Source: Streptomyces sp. NBC_01551
GTDB taxonomy: Bacteria > Actinomycetota > Actinomycetes > Streptomycetales > Streptomycetaceae
Direction: 5' to 3'
NCBI RefSeq assembly: GCF_026339935.1
Contig: NZ_JAPEPX010000001.1
Location: 3,114,001-3,178,000, forward strand
Length of the DNA stretch: 64,000 nucleotides
Below the pieces are notes generated by a model. It did no database searches, was not told the origin of the DNA, and saw only the letters and a list, made by a program, of their open reading frames with translations. A program made the position numbers and the translations under genes. This document shows positions 6,549 through 46,524 of the stretch, in pieces. Every line of letters starts with the position of its first letter. Within the stretch, counting starts at the first letter, position 1.

Positions 6549-7499
6549 TCAGGAATTCTGGGCCTTGTCGTAGGCCGCCTTCGCCTCGTTGCCGAAGTAC
6601 GGGCCGTACATCCGGTTGGGCAGGAAGGTGTAGCCGAAGCTGTTCACCGAGACCTGCGTGCCCAAGCCGGTGGCCTCGTTGAAGTCCTGGAACCAGGGGC
6701 CGCCGCTGGAGCCGCCGGTCATGTTGCAGGCCAGGCTGTGGTCCTTGGTCAGCAGGAAGTCCTTGCCGGAGTTCCCGCTGCAGTAGACCAGCTTGGTGCC
6801 GTCGTACGGGGCCGCCGCGGGGAAGCCGAAGGAGTACATCTTCTTGTTGTAGCCGCCGTTGAAGAGGATCCCCTGGGCCCCGACCACCTGGCTGAGCTTC
6901 TGGCCGCCCAGGGGGGCCACGACGGCGAGGCCGACGTCCATGTTCATGTCCTCGCTGGCCGCCCACTGGTCGGTCGCGAAGGTCTTGGTGGCCGACCACT
7001 GGCCGTAGGGCGCGTTGCCGTTGTCGTACGCCGGGACGAAGACCCAGTTGGTGTGCCAGGCGCCCTGGTACTTCACGCAGTGGCCGGCGGTGATCACCGT
7101 GCTGCCGTTGGCGCTGGTGATCGAGTCGCCGGAGCAGGAGGCGGTCCGGTCTCCCATGGTGAAGAAGACCCGGCCGGAGGTCTTCACGACCGCTCCGCCG
7201 CCCGTCCACGCGCCTCCCGCCTGCGGGAACGCGGTGGGGGAGGAGGGCGCTGTGGGGGCGATCGCCGTGGGGCGGTCCGCCGCCGAGACCGCGGTGCGGG
7301 TGGCGCCCGGGGCCGCCGTCACGTCGAGCGGGGTGGCGTTGCGCATCCGCTCGGCGGTCCAGAAGCCCTGGGTGTGCTGCTGCCGGAACGAGGACGTGTC
7401 CGCGGGGGCGGCGGCCGAGGGGGTGGCCGCCGTCAGCGCGCCCGCGATCAGGGCGCCCGCCGCCAGGAGGACCGATGCTGCCGTGTGATGACGATTCAC
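6549..7499 (-). CDS. Secreted trypsin-like serine peptidase
   Basis: A 316-residue extracellular endopeptidase of the chymotrypsin fold. A Sec signal peptide covers about residues 1-32 (start, a hydrophobic run LLAAGALIAGALTAA, then PSAAA). The catalytic triad is His140 (ITAGHCV), Asp188 (MNMDVGLA) and Ser265 (GGSSGGPW). GTG 7499 is chosen because AAGGAG lies 6 bases upstream and the signal peptide begins there; the longer open frame upstream gives Pro/Arg-rich nonsense. The residues between signal and catalytic domain may be a propeptide. It resembles the V8/streptogrisin-like secreted proteases of streptomycetes. It is monocistronic, with hairpins at its 3' end. Confidence 0.9.
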   Translation of the reverse strand: MNRHHTAASVLLAAGALIAGALTAATPSAAAPADTSSFRQQHTQGFWTAERMRNATPLDVTAAPGATRTAVSAADRPTAIAPTAPSSPTAFPQAGGAWTGGGAVVKTSGRVFFTMGDRTASCSGDSITSANGSTVITAGHCVKYQGAWHTNWVFVPAYDNGNAPYGQWSATKTFATDQWAASEDMNMDVGLAVVAPLGGQKLSQVVGAQGILFNGGYNKKMYSFGFPAAAPYDGTKLVYCSGNSGKDFLLTKDHSLACNMTGGSSGGPWFQDFNEATGLGTQVSVNSFGYTFLPNRMYGPYFGNEAKAAYDKAQNS

Positions 7500-40947: not shown

Positions 40948-41487
40948 ATGGACGACAGACGCACCGTGAAGGTGTCCAAATACGTCTCGAAACACCTGCG
41001 GCATCAGCCGGAACGCATCGGACTGGTGCTCGACCCCCAGGGCTGGGTGGAGATCGACGACCTGCTGCGGGCGGCCGCCGCCCACGGCTTCCCTTTCAGC
41101 CGCGCCGAGCTCGACCACGTCGTCGCCCACAACGACAAGAAGCGCTTCGCCGTCGACGGCACCCGCATCCGGGCCAGCCAGGGCCACACCGTCGCCGTGG
41201 ACCTGGACCTGCCGGAGGCCGAACCGCCCGCGTACCTGTACCACGGCACCGTGGCCACCGCCCTGGACGCGATCCGCGCCGAGGGCCTGCGCCCGATGGC
41301 CCGCCACCACGTGCACCTGTCCCCCGACCGGGAGACCGCGACCCGGGTGGGCGCGCGGCGCGGCCGGCCGGTGGTGCTCAGCGTGGACGCGGGAGCGATG
41401 CGGGCGGCCGGGCACGTCTTCCGGGTCAGCGCCAACGGCGTCTGGCTGGCCGACGCGGTACCGCCGGAATTCCTGCGGCTCCCCTAA
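40948..41487 (+). CDS. kptA: RNA 2'-phosphotransferase (Tpt1/KptA)
   Basis: A 179-residue enzyme that moves an internal 2'-phosphate from RNA to NAD+, forming ADP-ribose 1'',2''-cyclic phosphate. The family signature is complete: VSKYVSKHLRHQP, IRASQGHT, YLYHGT and HHVHLSPD supply the Arg-His-Arg-Arg set and NAD contacts. The N-terminal winged helix (residues 1-90) precedes the ART-like domain. In yeast it finishes tRNA splicing; in bacteria, without such introns, its substrate is unresolved (it may serve RNA repair or ADP-ribosylation). ATG 40948; single gene. Confidence 0.95.
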   Translation: MDDRRTVKVSKYVSKHLRHQPERIGLVLDPQGWVEIDDLLRAAAAHGFPFSRAELDHVVAHNDKKRFAVDGTRIRASQGHTVAVDLDLPEAEPPAYLYHGTVATALDAIRAEGLRPMARHHVHLSPDRETATRVGARRGRPVVLSVDAGAMRAAGHVFRVSANGVWLADAVPPEFLRLP

Positions 41488-41614
41488 TCGGCGCGGCCGA
41501 ATTCACGGGGAGATTGTCAGCTCATCGCCCTACCCTGTTGCTCACTCCGGGATCTGTGAGGGGGGTACCTCGCGATCGCCGAACCTTCCAAGCGAGCACG
41601 CGAGGTGACGCCCC

Positions 41615-43486
41615 ATGACGTCCTCATCCCCGAACCAGACAGCCGAGAACGAGATACCCGAAGCCTCCAACAGCTTCCAGGTCGATCTGCGCGGGCTCGT
41701 CGACCTGCTCTCCCACCACCTCTACTCCAGCCCGCGCGTCTACGTCCGCGAGCTCTTGCAGAACGCCGTGGACGCCGTCACCGCCCGCAGCGCGCACGAG
41801 CCCGGGGCGCGGATCCGCATCCGCCTGTCCGCCTCCGCCGGGCGCGTCACCATCGAGGACTCCGGCATCGGCCTGACCGCCGCCGAGACGCACTCCTTCC
41901 TCGCCACCATCGGCCGCAGCTCCAAGCGCGGCGGCGACCACGATTTGGAGAGCGCCCGCCGGCAGTTCCTCGGGCAGTTCGGCATCGGCCTGCTCGCCTG
42001 CTTCGTCGTCGCCCGCCAGATCCGCGTCGTCACCCGCTCCGCCCGCGACCCGCAGGCCGCGCCCGTCGAATGGCTTGCTTCGGACGACGGCTCGTACACC
42101 GTCCGCGAACTGCCCCACGAGGCCCGCCCGGAGCCCGGCACCACCGTCATCCTGGAGGCCCGCGCCGGCGCCGAGGAGTGGACCACCCCGGCCAAGGTCG
42201 AGCAGCTGGCCCGCGACTACGGCTCCCTGCTGCCCTACGACATCACCTTCGACGACGGCGAGGGCGGCGAGCCCCGCCCCGTCACCGACCGGCCCGCCGT
42301 GTGGGACCGCCCCTACCCCACCCCCGCCGCCCGCCGGGTCGCGCTCGCCGGGCACTGCGCGCAGCTGTTCGGCTTCACCCCGCTCGACAGCATCGACCTC
42401 GACCTGCCGGTCGCCGGGGTGCGCGGCGTGGCGTACGTCCTGCCGGAGCCGACCAGCCCCGCCCACCGGGCCGGACACCGCGTCCACCTCAAGGGCATGC
42501 TGCTGACCGACCAGGCCGACAACCTGCTGCCCGACTGGGCGTTCTTCGTCCGCGCCGTCCTCGACACCGACACGCTGCGGCCCACCGCCTCCCGCGAGAA
42601 CCTGTACGACGACGAGACCCTGGCCGCCGTACGGGAGGCCCTCGGCGCCCGCGTCCGCGGCTGGCTCGCCGAACTCGCGGCAAGCGAACCGGAGCGCCTG
42701 GCCGCGTTCCTGAGCGTCCACCACCTCGGCGTGAAGTCGCTGGCCCGGCACGACGCGGAGCTGCTCGGCCTGATGCTGCCCTGGCTGCCGTTCGAGACCA
42801 GCGACGGCTCGATGAGCCTGCAGGAGTTCGCGGCCGCCCACACCGAGATCCACTTCACGCGCACCGTCGAGGAGTTCCGCCAGATCGCCCCGATCGCGGC
42901 GGCCCACGGCCTCGGCGTCATCAACGCCGGCTACACCTACGACGCGGACCTGCTGGCCCTGCTGCCCTCCGTACGGCCCGACCTCAAGGTCGCCGAGCTG
43001 GATGCGGGAGCCGTCACCGAGCGGCTCGACCCCGTTCCCAGCTCCGCCGAACTGGCCCTCGCCGCCTTCCTGTCCACCGCGCGCACCCGCCTGGAGCCGC
43101 AGGGCTGCGACGTGGTGCTGCGCGCGTTCCAGCCCGTCTCCGTCCCCGCCCTCTACCTGGACGACCGCCAGGCCCGGCAGGAGCGCGACCGGACCACCGC
43201 GCTGGAGAGCGCCGACTCGCTGTGGACCGGCATCCTCGGCGCACTGCGCGGTTCGGCGCCGCGCGCCCGCCTGGTCCTCAACCACAACAACCCGCTGATC
43301 CGGCGGATCGCTTCGCTGCCCGACGAGACGCTGACCGGCACGGCCGTCGAATCGCTGTACGGGCAGGCGCTGCTGATGTCCCAGCGGCCGCTGCGCCCCG
43401 CCGACTCCACGCTGCTCAACCGGGCCTTCCTCGGGCTCCTGGAATGGGCGACCCACCCCGTCGAGACCCAGGAGGACCCGAAGTGA
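41615..43486 (+). CDS. HSP90-family ATPase (divergent HtpG)
   Basis: A 623-residue HSP90-like protein. The GHKL ATPase domain shows ELLQNAVDA (Glu46, Asn50), EDSGIGL (81-87), ATIGRSSKRGG (lid) and GQFGIGLLACF (120-130). The middle domain keeps the catalytic Arg in TASRENLYDD (about Arg327), in the segment FFVRAVLDTDTL typical of HtpG. The C-terminal part (LVLNHNNPLIRRIASLPDE) is also HSP90-like. It is shorter and more divergent than a housekeeping HtpG. ATG 41615. The stop overlaps the GTG of a large TPR gene, so chaperone and TPR partner are made together. Clients are unknown. Confidence 0.9.
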   Translation: MTSSSPNQTAENEIPEASNSFQVDLRGLVDLLSHHLYSSPRVYVRELLQNAVDAVTARSAHEPGARIRIRLSASAGRVTIEDSGIGLTAAETHSFLATIGRSSKRGGDHDLESARRQFLGQFGIGLLACFVVARQIRVVTRSARDPQAAPVEWLASDDGSYTVRELPHEARPEPGTTVILEARAGAEEWTTPAKVEQLARDYGSLLPYDITFDDGEGGEPRPVTDRPAVWDRPYPTPAARRVALAGHCAQLFGFTPLDSIDLDLPVAGVRGVAYVLPEPTSPAHRAGHRVHLKGMLLTDQADNLLPDWAFFVRAVLDTDTLRPTASRENLYDDETLAAVREALGARVRGWLAELAASEPERLAAFLSVHHLGVKSLARHDAELLGLMLPWLPFETSDGSMSLQEFAAAHTEIHFTRTVEEFRQIAPIAAAHGLGVINAGYTYDADLLALLPSVRPDLKVAELDAGAVTERLDPVPSSAELALAAFLSTARTRLEPQGCDVVLRAFQPVSVPALYLDDRQARQERDRTTALESADSLWTGILGALRGSAPRARLVLNHNNPLIRRIASLPDETLTGTAVESLYGQALLMSQRPLRPADSTLLNRAFLGLLEWATHPVETQEDPK

Positions 43487-46400
43487 CGACGATGACGCGC
43501 GAGGAGATCGAGCGGGGCCTCGAAGAGAACCGCCGCTCGCCCGGCGGCGCCGCCCGCAACGCGCACGCGGAGGCGCTGTCCGCCGCCGCCGAGGCGAGCG
43601 GCGACCGCGCGCTGTTCCGCGAAACGCTCGACAACCAGATCAACGCCTACCTCTACAGCTCGGAGTCGACGAAGCTGCTGGTGCCCTTCGCGCGGCTGCT
43701 CCAGGAGTACGACAAGGACGCCGGCGCGTTCTCCGAGTGGGAGGCTCACTCGCTGTTCTGGCAGTTCAAGTGGGTGGCCTCGTCGATCGCCGATTCCCCC
43801 GAGATCCCGGTGGAGTCCGCCGCCGGGTGGCTGGACGAGATGGAGCGCCGCTACCGGATCGCCGGCTACGGCGAGCGTCCCGTACGCAAGTCGGAGCTGT
43901 GGTTCGCCGACGCGATCGGCGACGACGACCGGGCCGAGCGGGCGTACCGGCGCTGGCAGGAGGCCGAACGCGACGACATGAGCGACTGCCACGCCTGCGA
44001 GCTCAACGGCCAGGGCCACTACGCGGTCCTGCGCGGTGACGACGCCCGCGCCCTGGAGGTCTGGCAGCCGGTGCTGGCGGGCGAGGAGACCTGCGCCGAG
44101 GAACCGCACCGGGTCATGGCGGCCGCGCTGCTGCCGCTGCTGCGGCTCGGGCGCTTCGAGGAGGCCCGCGCCCAGCACCTGCGCGGCTACCGGCTGGCCC
44201 GGGGCAAGGAGAGCCTGCTGCCCTCGGTCGGCCGGCACATCGAGTTCTGCGCGCTCACCGGGAACGAGCCGCGCGGCCTGGAGATCCTGGCCGAGCACGC
44301 CGCCCTGGTGGCGCCACTGGCCAACGTCGACGACCGGCTGTCCTTCCACGGCGGCATCCTCGTCCTGCTGCGCCGGCTGCGTGAACTGGGGCACGGCCAC
44401 CTCCCGGCCGTCCCCTACGAGGGCGTGCCGCGCACCGTGTCCGAGCTGTACGAGGTGCTGCGCGCGGGCGCGCTCGACATCGCCCGGCGGTTCGACGCGC
44501 GCAACGGCACCACCCGGGTCTCAGAGCGGTTCCTCACCCGCATCGACCGGGCGCCGCTGGTCGGCGCACTTCCGCTCGGGGTACGCAGCGCGGCCCTGCC
44601 ACAGCCGGTTCCCGCCGCGCCGGTGGCTGCGCCGGTGCCGGTCGCCGCTCCGGACGGGGCCGCGTTCGCCGAGCTGGTGGAGCGCGCCCGGGCGGCGCGT
44701 GACGTGGGGCATCCGGCTTCGGACGCGCTCTGGGCCGAGGTGGCCGGGCGTGCGTACGCGCTCGGGGACGCTGTGGATCCGCTGGTCCGTGCCGATGTGG
44801 CGGACCAGCGGGCCCTGGCCGCCGCGCGGGGCGGGGCCGCGGACGCGGCGCTGCTGGTGGCGGCGGCCCGTGACGGCTACCGGGCGCTGGGCCGGCAGGA
44901 GCGGGCCGCGCTGGCGGAGCTGCGGCTGGCGAGCGTGGCCGCGCAGTCGGGGGCCGCGCCGGGGGAGATCCGGGAGCTGCTGGCGGTGGCCCTGCGGGCC
45001 GCCGAGGCGCTGGACGCGGCCGAACCGCTGCGGGTCCGCCGGATCGCGCTCGCGGAACTGTCCGCGATCCGCCTGGAGTCGCACCTGCGCTCGGTCGAGG
45101 CCGCCGACGGACACGGGCACGGTCCCGGCCAGGAGCACGGACACGTACACGGGCACGGACAAGACCACGGGCACGGGCGCGGCGAGCTGGCCGCGGAACT
45201 CGGCGCCTTCGTCGCCTCCTACGCGCGGACGCTGCCCGATCTGGTGGCGGATGCCGAGGAGATGCTCGGCCGGGTGGCCCTGTCCGAGGGTGACCCGGAG
45301 CGGGCCGTGCCGCTGCTGGCCTCCTCCGCCGACCGGGCGGTCGCGGCGGGCCGGCCCTGGCAGGCGGTGGACCCGCTGGTGCTGCGCGCCGGTGTGCTGA
45401 TGTCGCTCGACCGGCCCGAGGAGGCCGAGGAGGCGGCGCGCTCCGCGCTGGCGCATGCAGGAGAGCTGACCGACGCCGAGCTGCAGGCCGTCGTACGGCT
45501 CACCCTGGCGGACATCCTTCTGGGGCGGGCCGACGGGGCCGAGGAGGTGGCCGAGCTCGCGCTCACGGCGTCGCACTGGTTCGACCAGGCCGGCCTCAGT
45601 GCCGACGGCGGGGCCCAGGCCCGGCTGCTGCTGGCGCGGGCGTACGCACGCCAGGCCCGCCACGCCGACGCGGCCGAGGTGCTGCGGTCGACGCTGCCGG
45701 ACCTGCTGGAGCACGGTGAGCAGCAGGCCGTGGCCGTACGGGAGTTCCTCGGGGATCTCCTGCGGGAGTCGCGGGAAGCGCGCGAGGCGGCGGAGCAGTA
45801 CCTGCTGGCGGCGGAGCTCGTGAAGGACTGGGAGGACCCGCGTCCGCAGGCGGGCTTCGCGCAGGCAGCCGCCGATCAGCTGAGCGAGGCGCGGCTGTCG
45901 CGGGAGGCGGTCGCGGCGTACGAGCGGGCCCTGGAGCTGCACCGGCTGGCGGGGGACGCGCCGGTCGCCGAGGTCCGCGTCCTGCGGTCCCTGGCCTGGC
46001 TGGCGATCCGCGACGAGGTCAGCGCGGCGGGGGTGGCACGTGCCCGGGCCCTGATGGCCGAGGCGGCCGGGGTGCTGGAGAAGGCGCTGACGGGCGATCC
46101 GGACGTACCGGAGCTGCGGTCGGAACTCGCCCAGACCTGGCATCAGCTGGCGCAGGTGCTGGACCGGTGGGTCGGCGTCCACGACCCGCAGGACGGCGAC
46201 GGCGGGGACCAGAACCAGGACAGCGAGGGCTCCGGCCACGCCGAGCCGCTGAGCGACGCGGAGCTGGAGGCGCTGCGCCAGGAGGAGATCCTGCTGTGGG
46301 ACCGGGCGGCCGGCGTCTACGCCGGCCTCGGCCCCGAGTACCTGCGCGATCGCTTCCAGTGCCTGAACGGCGCGGCCTGGACGGAGCGGGAACTCGGCCG

Positions 46401-46524
46401 CCCCGAGGAGGGCGCCGCCCGGATCTCGGCTCTGGTCGAGGAACTCCGCACCTGGCCCGAGGGCGCGGCGGCGGAGTGGATCCTGCCCCACGCGGAGCGG
46501 ACCGTCGAGCATCTGACGGCCTGA
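43483..46524 (+). CDS. Large tetratricopeptide-repeat protein coupled to HSP90-like gene
   Basis: A 1013-residue helical-repeat protein. GTG 43483 follows GGAGG (43471-43475) and overlaps the HSP90 stop; ATG 43492 is an alternative. Repeats with TPR spacing occur in the N-terminal third (HYAVLRGDDARALEVWQPVL, LLPLLRLGRFEEARAQHLRG) and the C-terminal third (LLLARAYARQARHADAAEVL, AAEQYLLAAELVK, EAVAAYERALELHRLA). Between them at about 541-570 is a His/Gly-rich stretch (HGHGPGQEHGHVHGHGQDHG) that could bind Zn, Ni or Cu. No signal or membrane segment. A TPR protein beside an HSP90 recalls eukaryotic HSP90-TPR co-chaperones; the usual MEEVD anchor is not seen at the HSP90 C-terminus. Confidence 0.88.
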   Translation: MTTMTREEIERGLEENRRSPGGAARNAHAEALSAAAEASGDRALFRETLDNQINAYLYSSESTKLLVPFARLLQEYDKDAGAFSEWEAHSLFWQFKWVASSIADSPEIPVESAAGWLDEMERRYRIAGYGERPVRKSELWFADAIGDDDRAERAYRRWQEAERDDMSDCHACELNGQGHYAVLRGDDARALEVWQPVLAGEETCAEEPHRVMAAALLPLLRLGRFEEARAQHLRGYRLARGKESLLPSVGRHIEFCALTGNEPRGLEILAEHAALVAPLANVDDRLSFHGGILVLLRRLRELGHGHLPAVPYEGVPRTVSELYEVLRAGALDIARRFDARNGTTRVSERFLTRIDRAPLVGALPLGVRSAALPQPVPAAPVAAPVPVAAPDGAAFAELVERARAARDVGHPASDALWAEVAGRAYALGDAVDPLVRADVADQRALAAARGGAADAALLVAAARDGYRALGRQERAALAELRLASVAAQSGAAPGEIRELLAVALRAAEALDAAEPLRVRRIALAELSAIRLESHLRSVEAADGHGHGPGQEHGHVHGHGQDHGHGRGELAAELGAFVASYARTLPDLVADAEEMLGRVALSEGDPERAVPLLASSADRAVAAGRPWQAVDPLVLRAGVLMSLDRPEEAEEAARSALAHAGELTDAELQAVVRLTLADILLGRADGAEEVAELALTASHWFDQAGLSADGGAQARLLLARAYARQARHADAAEVLRSTLPDLLEHGEQQAVAVREFLGDLLRESREAREAAEQYLLAAELVKDWEDPRPQAGFAQAAADQLSEARLSREAVAAYERALELHRLAGDAPVAEVRVLRSLAWLAIRDEVSAAGVARARALMAEAAGVLEKALTGDPDVPELRSELAQTWHQLAQVLDRWVGVHDPQDGDGGDQNQDSEGSGHAEPLSDAELEALRQEEILLWDRAAGVYAGLGPEYLRDRFQCLNGAAWTERELGRPEEGAARISALVEELRTWPEGAAAEWILPHAERTVEHLTA

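Follow-up and report, generated by a model that had tools for sequence, protein, structure and literature searches.

In eukaryotes, Hsp90 is assisted by co-chaperones built of tetratricopeptide repeats (TPRs), such as HOP/Sti1, Cpr6 and FKBP51, and bacterial Hsp90 is known mainly from Escherichia coli HtpG, characterised in excerpts of PMC4428384 as a stand-alone machine. The present analysis concerns two adjoining genes in a 64,000-nucleotide stretch of Streptomyces sp. NBC_01551 (contig NZ_JAPEPX010000001.1, positions 3,114,001 to 3,178,000; hereafter the window). An Hsp90 gene of the NF010683 type (41615..43486, forward strand, 623 aa), recognised from its open reading frame (ORF) and family profile, is followed on the same strand by the ORF of a TPR partner (43483..46524, 1013 aa, GTG start), with the Hsp90 stop codon TGA and the GTG sharing 4 nt (GTGA). 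Both the complete, divergent Hsp90 and its 4-base overlap with a 1013-residue TPR gene, as given in a preliminary description, are confirmed by the ORFs and by alignment over positions 4-601 of the 604-position NF010683 profile. The two genes quite probably encode a conserved two-part machine, comprising an Hsp90 ATPase clamp and a dedicated TPR co-chaperone.

The likeness to the eukaryotic systems lies in an ATP-driven clamp paired with a TPR helper, whereas the window pair differs in having no MEEVD-like tail, no match to a crude carboxylate-clamp pattern, overlapping genes, and a partner core with a cysteine triad and an RFDARNG motif. The partner is best read as analogous, not homologous, to the eukaryotic TPR co-chaperones. 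LGN/Pins, MalT domain III and Rap/NprR share a TPR superhelix with it, a likeness of fold only, with no sequence or functional link shown. Canonical HtpG (NF003555) has the Hsp90 family and ATPase residues in common with the window Hsp90, but the latter scores 184.9 bits against that profile, below the cut-off of 371, falls in another tree cluster, and is followed by a TPR gene where HtpG genes have no TPR family in ten downstream ORFs. Against NF010683 it reaches 825.8 bits (curated cut-off 455), and by profile score it is an NF010683 'HSP90 family protein', not HtpG. The catalytic Glu, N-box Asn, GQFG and middle-domain Arg are present and, with few exceptions, kept in 60 aligned Hsp90s; because these key ATP-binding and hydrolysis residues are retained, the protein is taken to be an active ATPase clamp.

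Excerpts of Chen et al. (2006; PMC1525184) distinguish three HTPG groups and record two copies in S. coelicolor, the second HTPG having 615 aa; the term 'TPR' has 0 occurrences in its main text, and NF010683 probably corresponds to HTPG Group C of that study. An Hsp90-TPR pair is likewise not described in excerpts of PMC3710099, PMC11687934 and PMC11090510. Among the matches listed from the openly licensed PubMed Central literature, subscription papers being outside scope, no report of a co-encoded bacterial Hsp90-TPR pair was found, which agrees with the earlier supposition that such a partnership was undescribed. The Hsp90 family is already known; its co-encoded TPR pairing appears new. For M. 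tuberculosis, a 2023 paper (PMC10269695) reportedly, by its title, associates DnaJ2 with HtpG, a helper of another kind.

Co-occurrence and co-divergence of the two genes

The part of the partner common to planctomycetes and Bacillota in sequence comparison is a core of about residues 1-356 (43483..44550), and its distribution follows that of the Hsp90. In a class sample of 345 genomes, with Hsp90 called by the NF010683 cut-off and the core by E up to 1e-10, the Hsp90 occurred in 40 genomes and the core in 42. Both were present in 39, Hsp90 only in one (G325), the core only in three (G171, G204, G653) and neither in 302, with a Fisher value of 9e-47 that is not corrected for kinship. The core lay directly downstream on the same strand at 43 of the 44 class Hsp90 places fetched, the 45th being the window's own. 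Among 246 planctomycete genomes, the Hsp90 was found in eight and the core in the same eight, two of which (G703 and G707) had served as search seeds. The core was directly downstream in four of them and directly upstream in one (G786); in G814 it lay about 8 kb away, and in G707 and G871 on other contigs. Because three of the eight genomes carry both genes apart, the link is not explained by gene order alone. A further planctomycete genome, G898, had no core match, and its Hsp90, truncated at contig ends, scored below the cut-off. Across 55 named loci, the core was downstream in 53, including L054 at a distance of about 1 kb. The dedicated pair envisaged in the preliminary description is strongly supported, relatives carrying the genes together (39 of 345 genomes) and not usually apart.

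Of 108 loci inspected, 100 have a core downstream, and in 74 of these the overlap is exactly 4 nt; close relatives make up most of this sample, and at least three of its loci are counted twice. Actinomycetes show this overlap, as do the planctomycete loci L056 and L057; for Paenibacillus L196 it follows from the coordinates, the Hsp90 running to 6767 and the core starting at 6764. Hsp90 and core distance matrices correlated at 0.94 over 42 actinomycete pairs (0/2000 permutations). Five Streptomyces genomes carry two pairs apiece, and in them every partner clusters by pair type: same-genome paralogues are 61-64% identical for the Hsp90s and 41-42% for the cores, and between genomes the two pair types average 91 and 94% (Hsp90) and 85 and 86% (core).

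Seven plasmid records hold at least 80% of the Hsp90, six of them with a TPR match beside it; plasmid carriage means little, because four of these six records exceed 1 Mb. Phage records matching the Hsp90 numbered 29, and of the two examined one is a fecal contig and the other comes from Salmonella. No Hsp90-TPR fusion was apparent at the fetched Hsp90 places, no search aimed at fusions having been made. Two planctomycete-sample or class loci carry altered Hsp90 genes, with an inner stop in G786 (L162) and a split over two reading frames in G659 (L144).

Partner architecture and Hsp90s of other lineages

The partner core is a TPR superhelix of about 356 aa with a cysteine triad and RFDARNG (44488..44508). 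The first two cysteines, C169 and C172, lie in DCHAC (43984..43998) and the third, C204, in TCAEE (44089..44103), all on the forward strand. The triad reads CCC in 277 of 292 aligned rows; the remaining 15 comprise the unrelated P0180, the orphan L003, which keeps C204 only, and 13 rows showing no triad cysteine, one of them gapped at C204. The three-cysteine site is probably metal-binding. The window protein adds a second TPR superhelix of about 620 aa (residues 392-1012; 44656..46518), which in the predicted structure has an LGN-like fold and which planctomycete and Bacillota cores lack. AlphaFold2 models of the partner gave predicted local distance difference test (pLDDT) values of 94.0 and 95.5, with TPR matches in the PDB. 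The word 'giant', used of the partner earlier, suits the window lineage and not the others, as planctomycete and Bacillota partners are mostly core only, of about 320-395 aa.

Two tandem TPR-core genes follow one Hsp90 in L155 (G912), L157 (G754) and L194 (Listeria), and the second copy in G912 has none of the three triad cysteines. The window's own genome also holds, on contig C3, an orphan TPR paralogue of 974 aa (L003/L146) with no Hsp90 nearby; it has lost the triad CxxC and kept the third Cys and FDRRNG. At L187 and L186 (G554 and G204), which have no Hsp90 alongside, the TPR core sits in an ORF of 550-584 aa, and each has a similar opposite-strand ORF of 815-822 aa (MAGRTSQASRRRG...) close by.

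In Bacillota, the Listeria monocytogenes Hsp90 scores 799.4 bits to NF010683 and has two cores in tandem behind it (324 and 320 aa), annotated as hypothetical proteins; the Paenibacillus pair has a core of 353 aa and an Hsp90 not scored against NF010683. DCxAC, FDxRN and the third Cys are conserved in the cores of both genera. The Listeria Hsp90 and core genes are those we take to be lmo0942 and lmo0941. In excerpts of the respective papers, lmo0942 adjoins fri (PMC3534079), which fits the annotation at the Listeria locus, and is listed among heat shock protein genes (PMC10393277), and the function of lmo0941 is called unknown (PMC6901971).

Planctomycete Hsp90s outside NF010683 were examined at nine loci of 266-322 bits, out of twelve places scoring about 240-322 bits when the G898 pieces are set aside. 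Clear TPR proteins follow at three, L165 (twice over), L166 and L172. At L164 the next protein has a weak TPR match, at L168 and L169 relatives of the L164 partner follow, with no Pfam match, and at L167 an ORF follows that has no Pfam TPR match; at L170 and L171 no TPR-like neighbour was recognised, the neighbours being without a Pfam scan. Gammaproteobacterial Hsp90s, of which two out of three were scored against NF010683 (277-293 bits), precede a partner of 764-774 aa; the Xanthomonas vasicola partner bears a TPR annotation, and the Pseudomonas aeruginosa partner is 62% and the Salmonella one about 40% identical to it. Over 137 residues, the partner at planctomycete locus L166 is similar to that of Xanthomonas (E 3e-6, nine-sequence comparison).

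The control consisted of 18 HtpG-type loci (L072-L089) from the actinomycete phylum sample, with about 0.7-0.9 kb of downstream sequence each. No TPR family was matched up to E 0.1 in ten ORFs downstream of these genes, the ORFs having been found mechanically, so that some are perhaps not genes; no 80-aa ORF lay within 200 nt at five loci, and another three ORFs stayed outside the scan. In trees of 60 and 52 Hsp90s, the second made by dropping 16 rows of the first and adding 8, HtpG-type rows form a separate cluster with support 100/100, and NF010683 and other divergent Hsp90s make up the remaining clusters. The trees are midpoint-rooted and their long branches meet at HtpG, the order of coupling gains and losses not being readable from them. 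The tree label 'otherTPR' is carried by L167 despite no Pfam TPR match and by L168 and L169 on the strength of 38% identity to the L164 partner; the label 'none' covers L141, with only 15 nt downstream, and L170 and L171, with neighbours outside the Pfam scan. HtpG exceeds its cut-off in 63 of the 345 class genomes, 11 of which also have an NF010683 Hsp90; the other 29 of the 40 genomes with an NF010683 Hsp90, the window's included, have no HtpG over the cut-off.

Proposed mechanism and its alternatives

The TPR protein is best read as a putative Hsp90 co-chaperone or client adaptor, its contact and function being presumed. The overlapping genes would allow both chains to be made together from one mRNA. 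The core of about 356 aa would dock on the Hsp90 body, most likely on the middle or C-terminal domain because there is no MEEVD tail, through surfaces that may include RFDARNG and the three-cysteine site; the core most likely carries the docking site because it is the part that tracks the Hsp90. In Streptomyces, the second superhelix (392-1012) would probably capture clients and hand them to the clamp, whose ATP cycle would fold, remodel or release them. Since a C-terminal EVD occurs in 0 of 171 Hsp90 locus hits and the window protein has no clamp pattern, docking is probably unlike that of HOP/FKBP-type co-chaperones. The carboxylate-clamp pattern applied, KxxxN...N...KxxxR, was a crude one, absent from the window protein (P0002) and matched in 1 of 180 proteins. 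A contact other than through MEEVD, as had been suggested, fits the missing tail and, within the limits of this crude test, the absent clamp pattern. As to the chaperone-cochaperone pair proposed at the same time, the conserved pairing stands and co-chaperone action is what we infer from it.

The Hsp90 tails of close Streptomyces relatives are often acidic, e.g. QEDQK, and other lineages have no such stretch. An acidic '(E)ED' tail as a MEEVD substitute was rejected on account of this restricted distribution and because its codons contain the AGGAGG that precedes the TPR gene. This AGGAGG (43470..43475), within the Hsp90 3' end, is the likely ribosome-binding site of the TPR gene and, because the stretch encodes it and is absent elsewhere, may explain the acidic tail of close relatives.

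Several observations weigh against a dedicated machine. Loci L055 and L058, of the 55 named, show no core nearby; about 1 kb separates the two genes in L054 and L173; the G786 core lies upstream of its Hsp90; and in G325 the Hsp90 is followed by a different TPR protein, with Pfam TPR_2 and TPR_8 hits just over cut-off. Cores stand without an adjacent Hsp90 in L003, G171, G204 and G653 and as a second copy in G554, further such copies exist in G751 and G814, and an Actinomyces oris plasmid record (L198) has a 1011-aa core protein with no Hsp90 annotated within 5 kb. A constrained operon could, moreover, fit the TPR protein as a client. That it is a dedicated client, its long superhelix folded or solubilised by the Hsp90 and the TPR protein itself performing the cellular function, is unlikely. 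Between paralogous pairs the core does diverge further (identity about 0.42, vs 0.62 for the Hsp90), the C-terminal part is lineage-specific and cores without Hsp90 exist, as such a role would have it, but the small planctomycete and Bacillota core of about 320-395 aa is an unlikely obligate client, and the recurrence of other TPR families beside related Hsp90s fits better with TPR proteins as a helper class.

It is also improbable that the TPR protein senses a peptide, metal or redox state through its cysteine triad, with the Hsp90-like ATPase as switch or effector in stress or defence: the Hsp90 covers its family profile nearly end to end, no neighbour of any kind recurs (36 loci), TPR folds generally look alike, and the site is stable in close Streptomyces, where 31 of the 44 full loci have an RNA 2'-phosphotransferase gene, presumably KptA-like, no more than 800 nt upstream and 35 of the 44 have an LLM oxidoreductase gene as a neighbour. 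Very improbable is a mere operon neighbourhood, by chance or shared regulation and with no joint action. Gene order in close relatives is inherited by descent and would be expected in that case too; the pair nevertheless holds together across three phyla, both genes recur in the same eight planctomycete genomes out of 246 even though three of these have them apart, co-divergence goes by pair type, and other divergent Hsp90s precede other TPR genes. Co-occurrence without adjacency has largely refuted this explanation already.

The machine of clamp and TPR co-chaperone may have a wider counterpart, proposed here tentatively and as somewhat doubtful: bacterial Hsp90s outside the HtpG cluster would be TPR-coupled as a rule, each branch with its own co-encoded TPR co-chaperone, the teamwork being ancient or repeatedly invented and MEEVD-independent, and solitary HtpG the exception. 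The branches concerned are the triad core in Actinomycetota, Planctomycetota and Bacillota, and other TPR families in planctomycetes and Gammaproteobacteria. A little-studied Hsp90 branch inherited with its own TPR partner in several phyla points to bacteria possessing their own Hsp90-partner machines. Such a second widespread kind of bacterial Hsp90 would provide a minimal, purifiable Hsp90-co-chaperone pair, would open the origin of Hsp90-TPR cooperation to testing, and would bear on actinomycetes that have an NF010683 Hsp90 and no HtpG over the cut-off (29/40).

Other features and surroundings of the locus

Upstream of the Hsp90 gene, GAGGTGA (41602..41608, forward strand) is its likely ribosome-binding site, and the leader 41500-41612 is conserved among close Streptomyces. 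The RNA 2'-phosphotransferase gene occupies 40990-41487, just 5' of the Hsp90 gene, and is rare at this place in the class sample. HAIR and CIRCE operators, with up to 3 mismatches allowed, gave 0 matches in the window, and heat-shock control through them was dropped. Inside the C-terminal part of the TPR protein, a His-rich loop with low pLDDT (45106..45183, forward strand; 8 His per 26 residues) is a possible metal-binding element.

ORF clustering around 36 loci yielded three large clusters, namely the TPR proteins, the Hsp90s and mixed opposite-strand ORFs of these genes; no recurring third gene and no other cluster of more than 3 ORFs appeared, and a third component of the pair was dropped. 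In PADLOC-DB 2023, the TPR protein had 0 matches, and the Hsp90 matched only in its N-terminal GHKL domain (REase_II and TmtA models). A known anti-phage system or defence island was set aside, no PADLOC model matching both proteins and no neighbour gene recurring, and the defence-sensor role suggested at the outset finds little support in the same results, though a cyanobacterial relative, L197, looks immune-like. On the Pseudanabaena plasmid ABRG53a, L197 encodes an Hsp90-like ATPase of 877 aa with a C-terminal extension that shows a weak match, below the cut-off (E 0.001), to a CAP12/Pycsar TIR domain; the ATPase is adjoined by a TIR protein, and a TPR protein lies two genes downstream.
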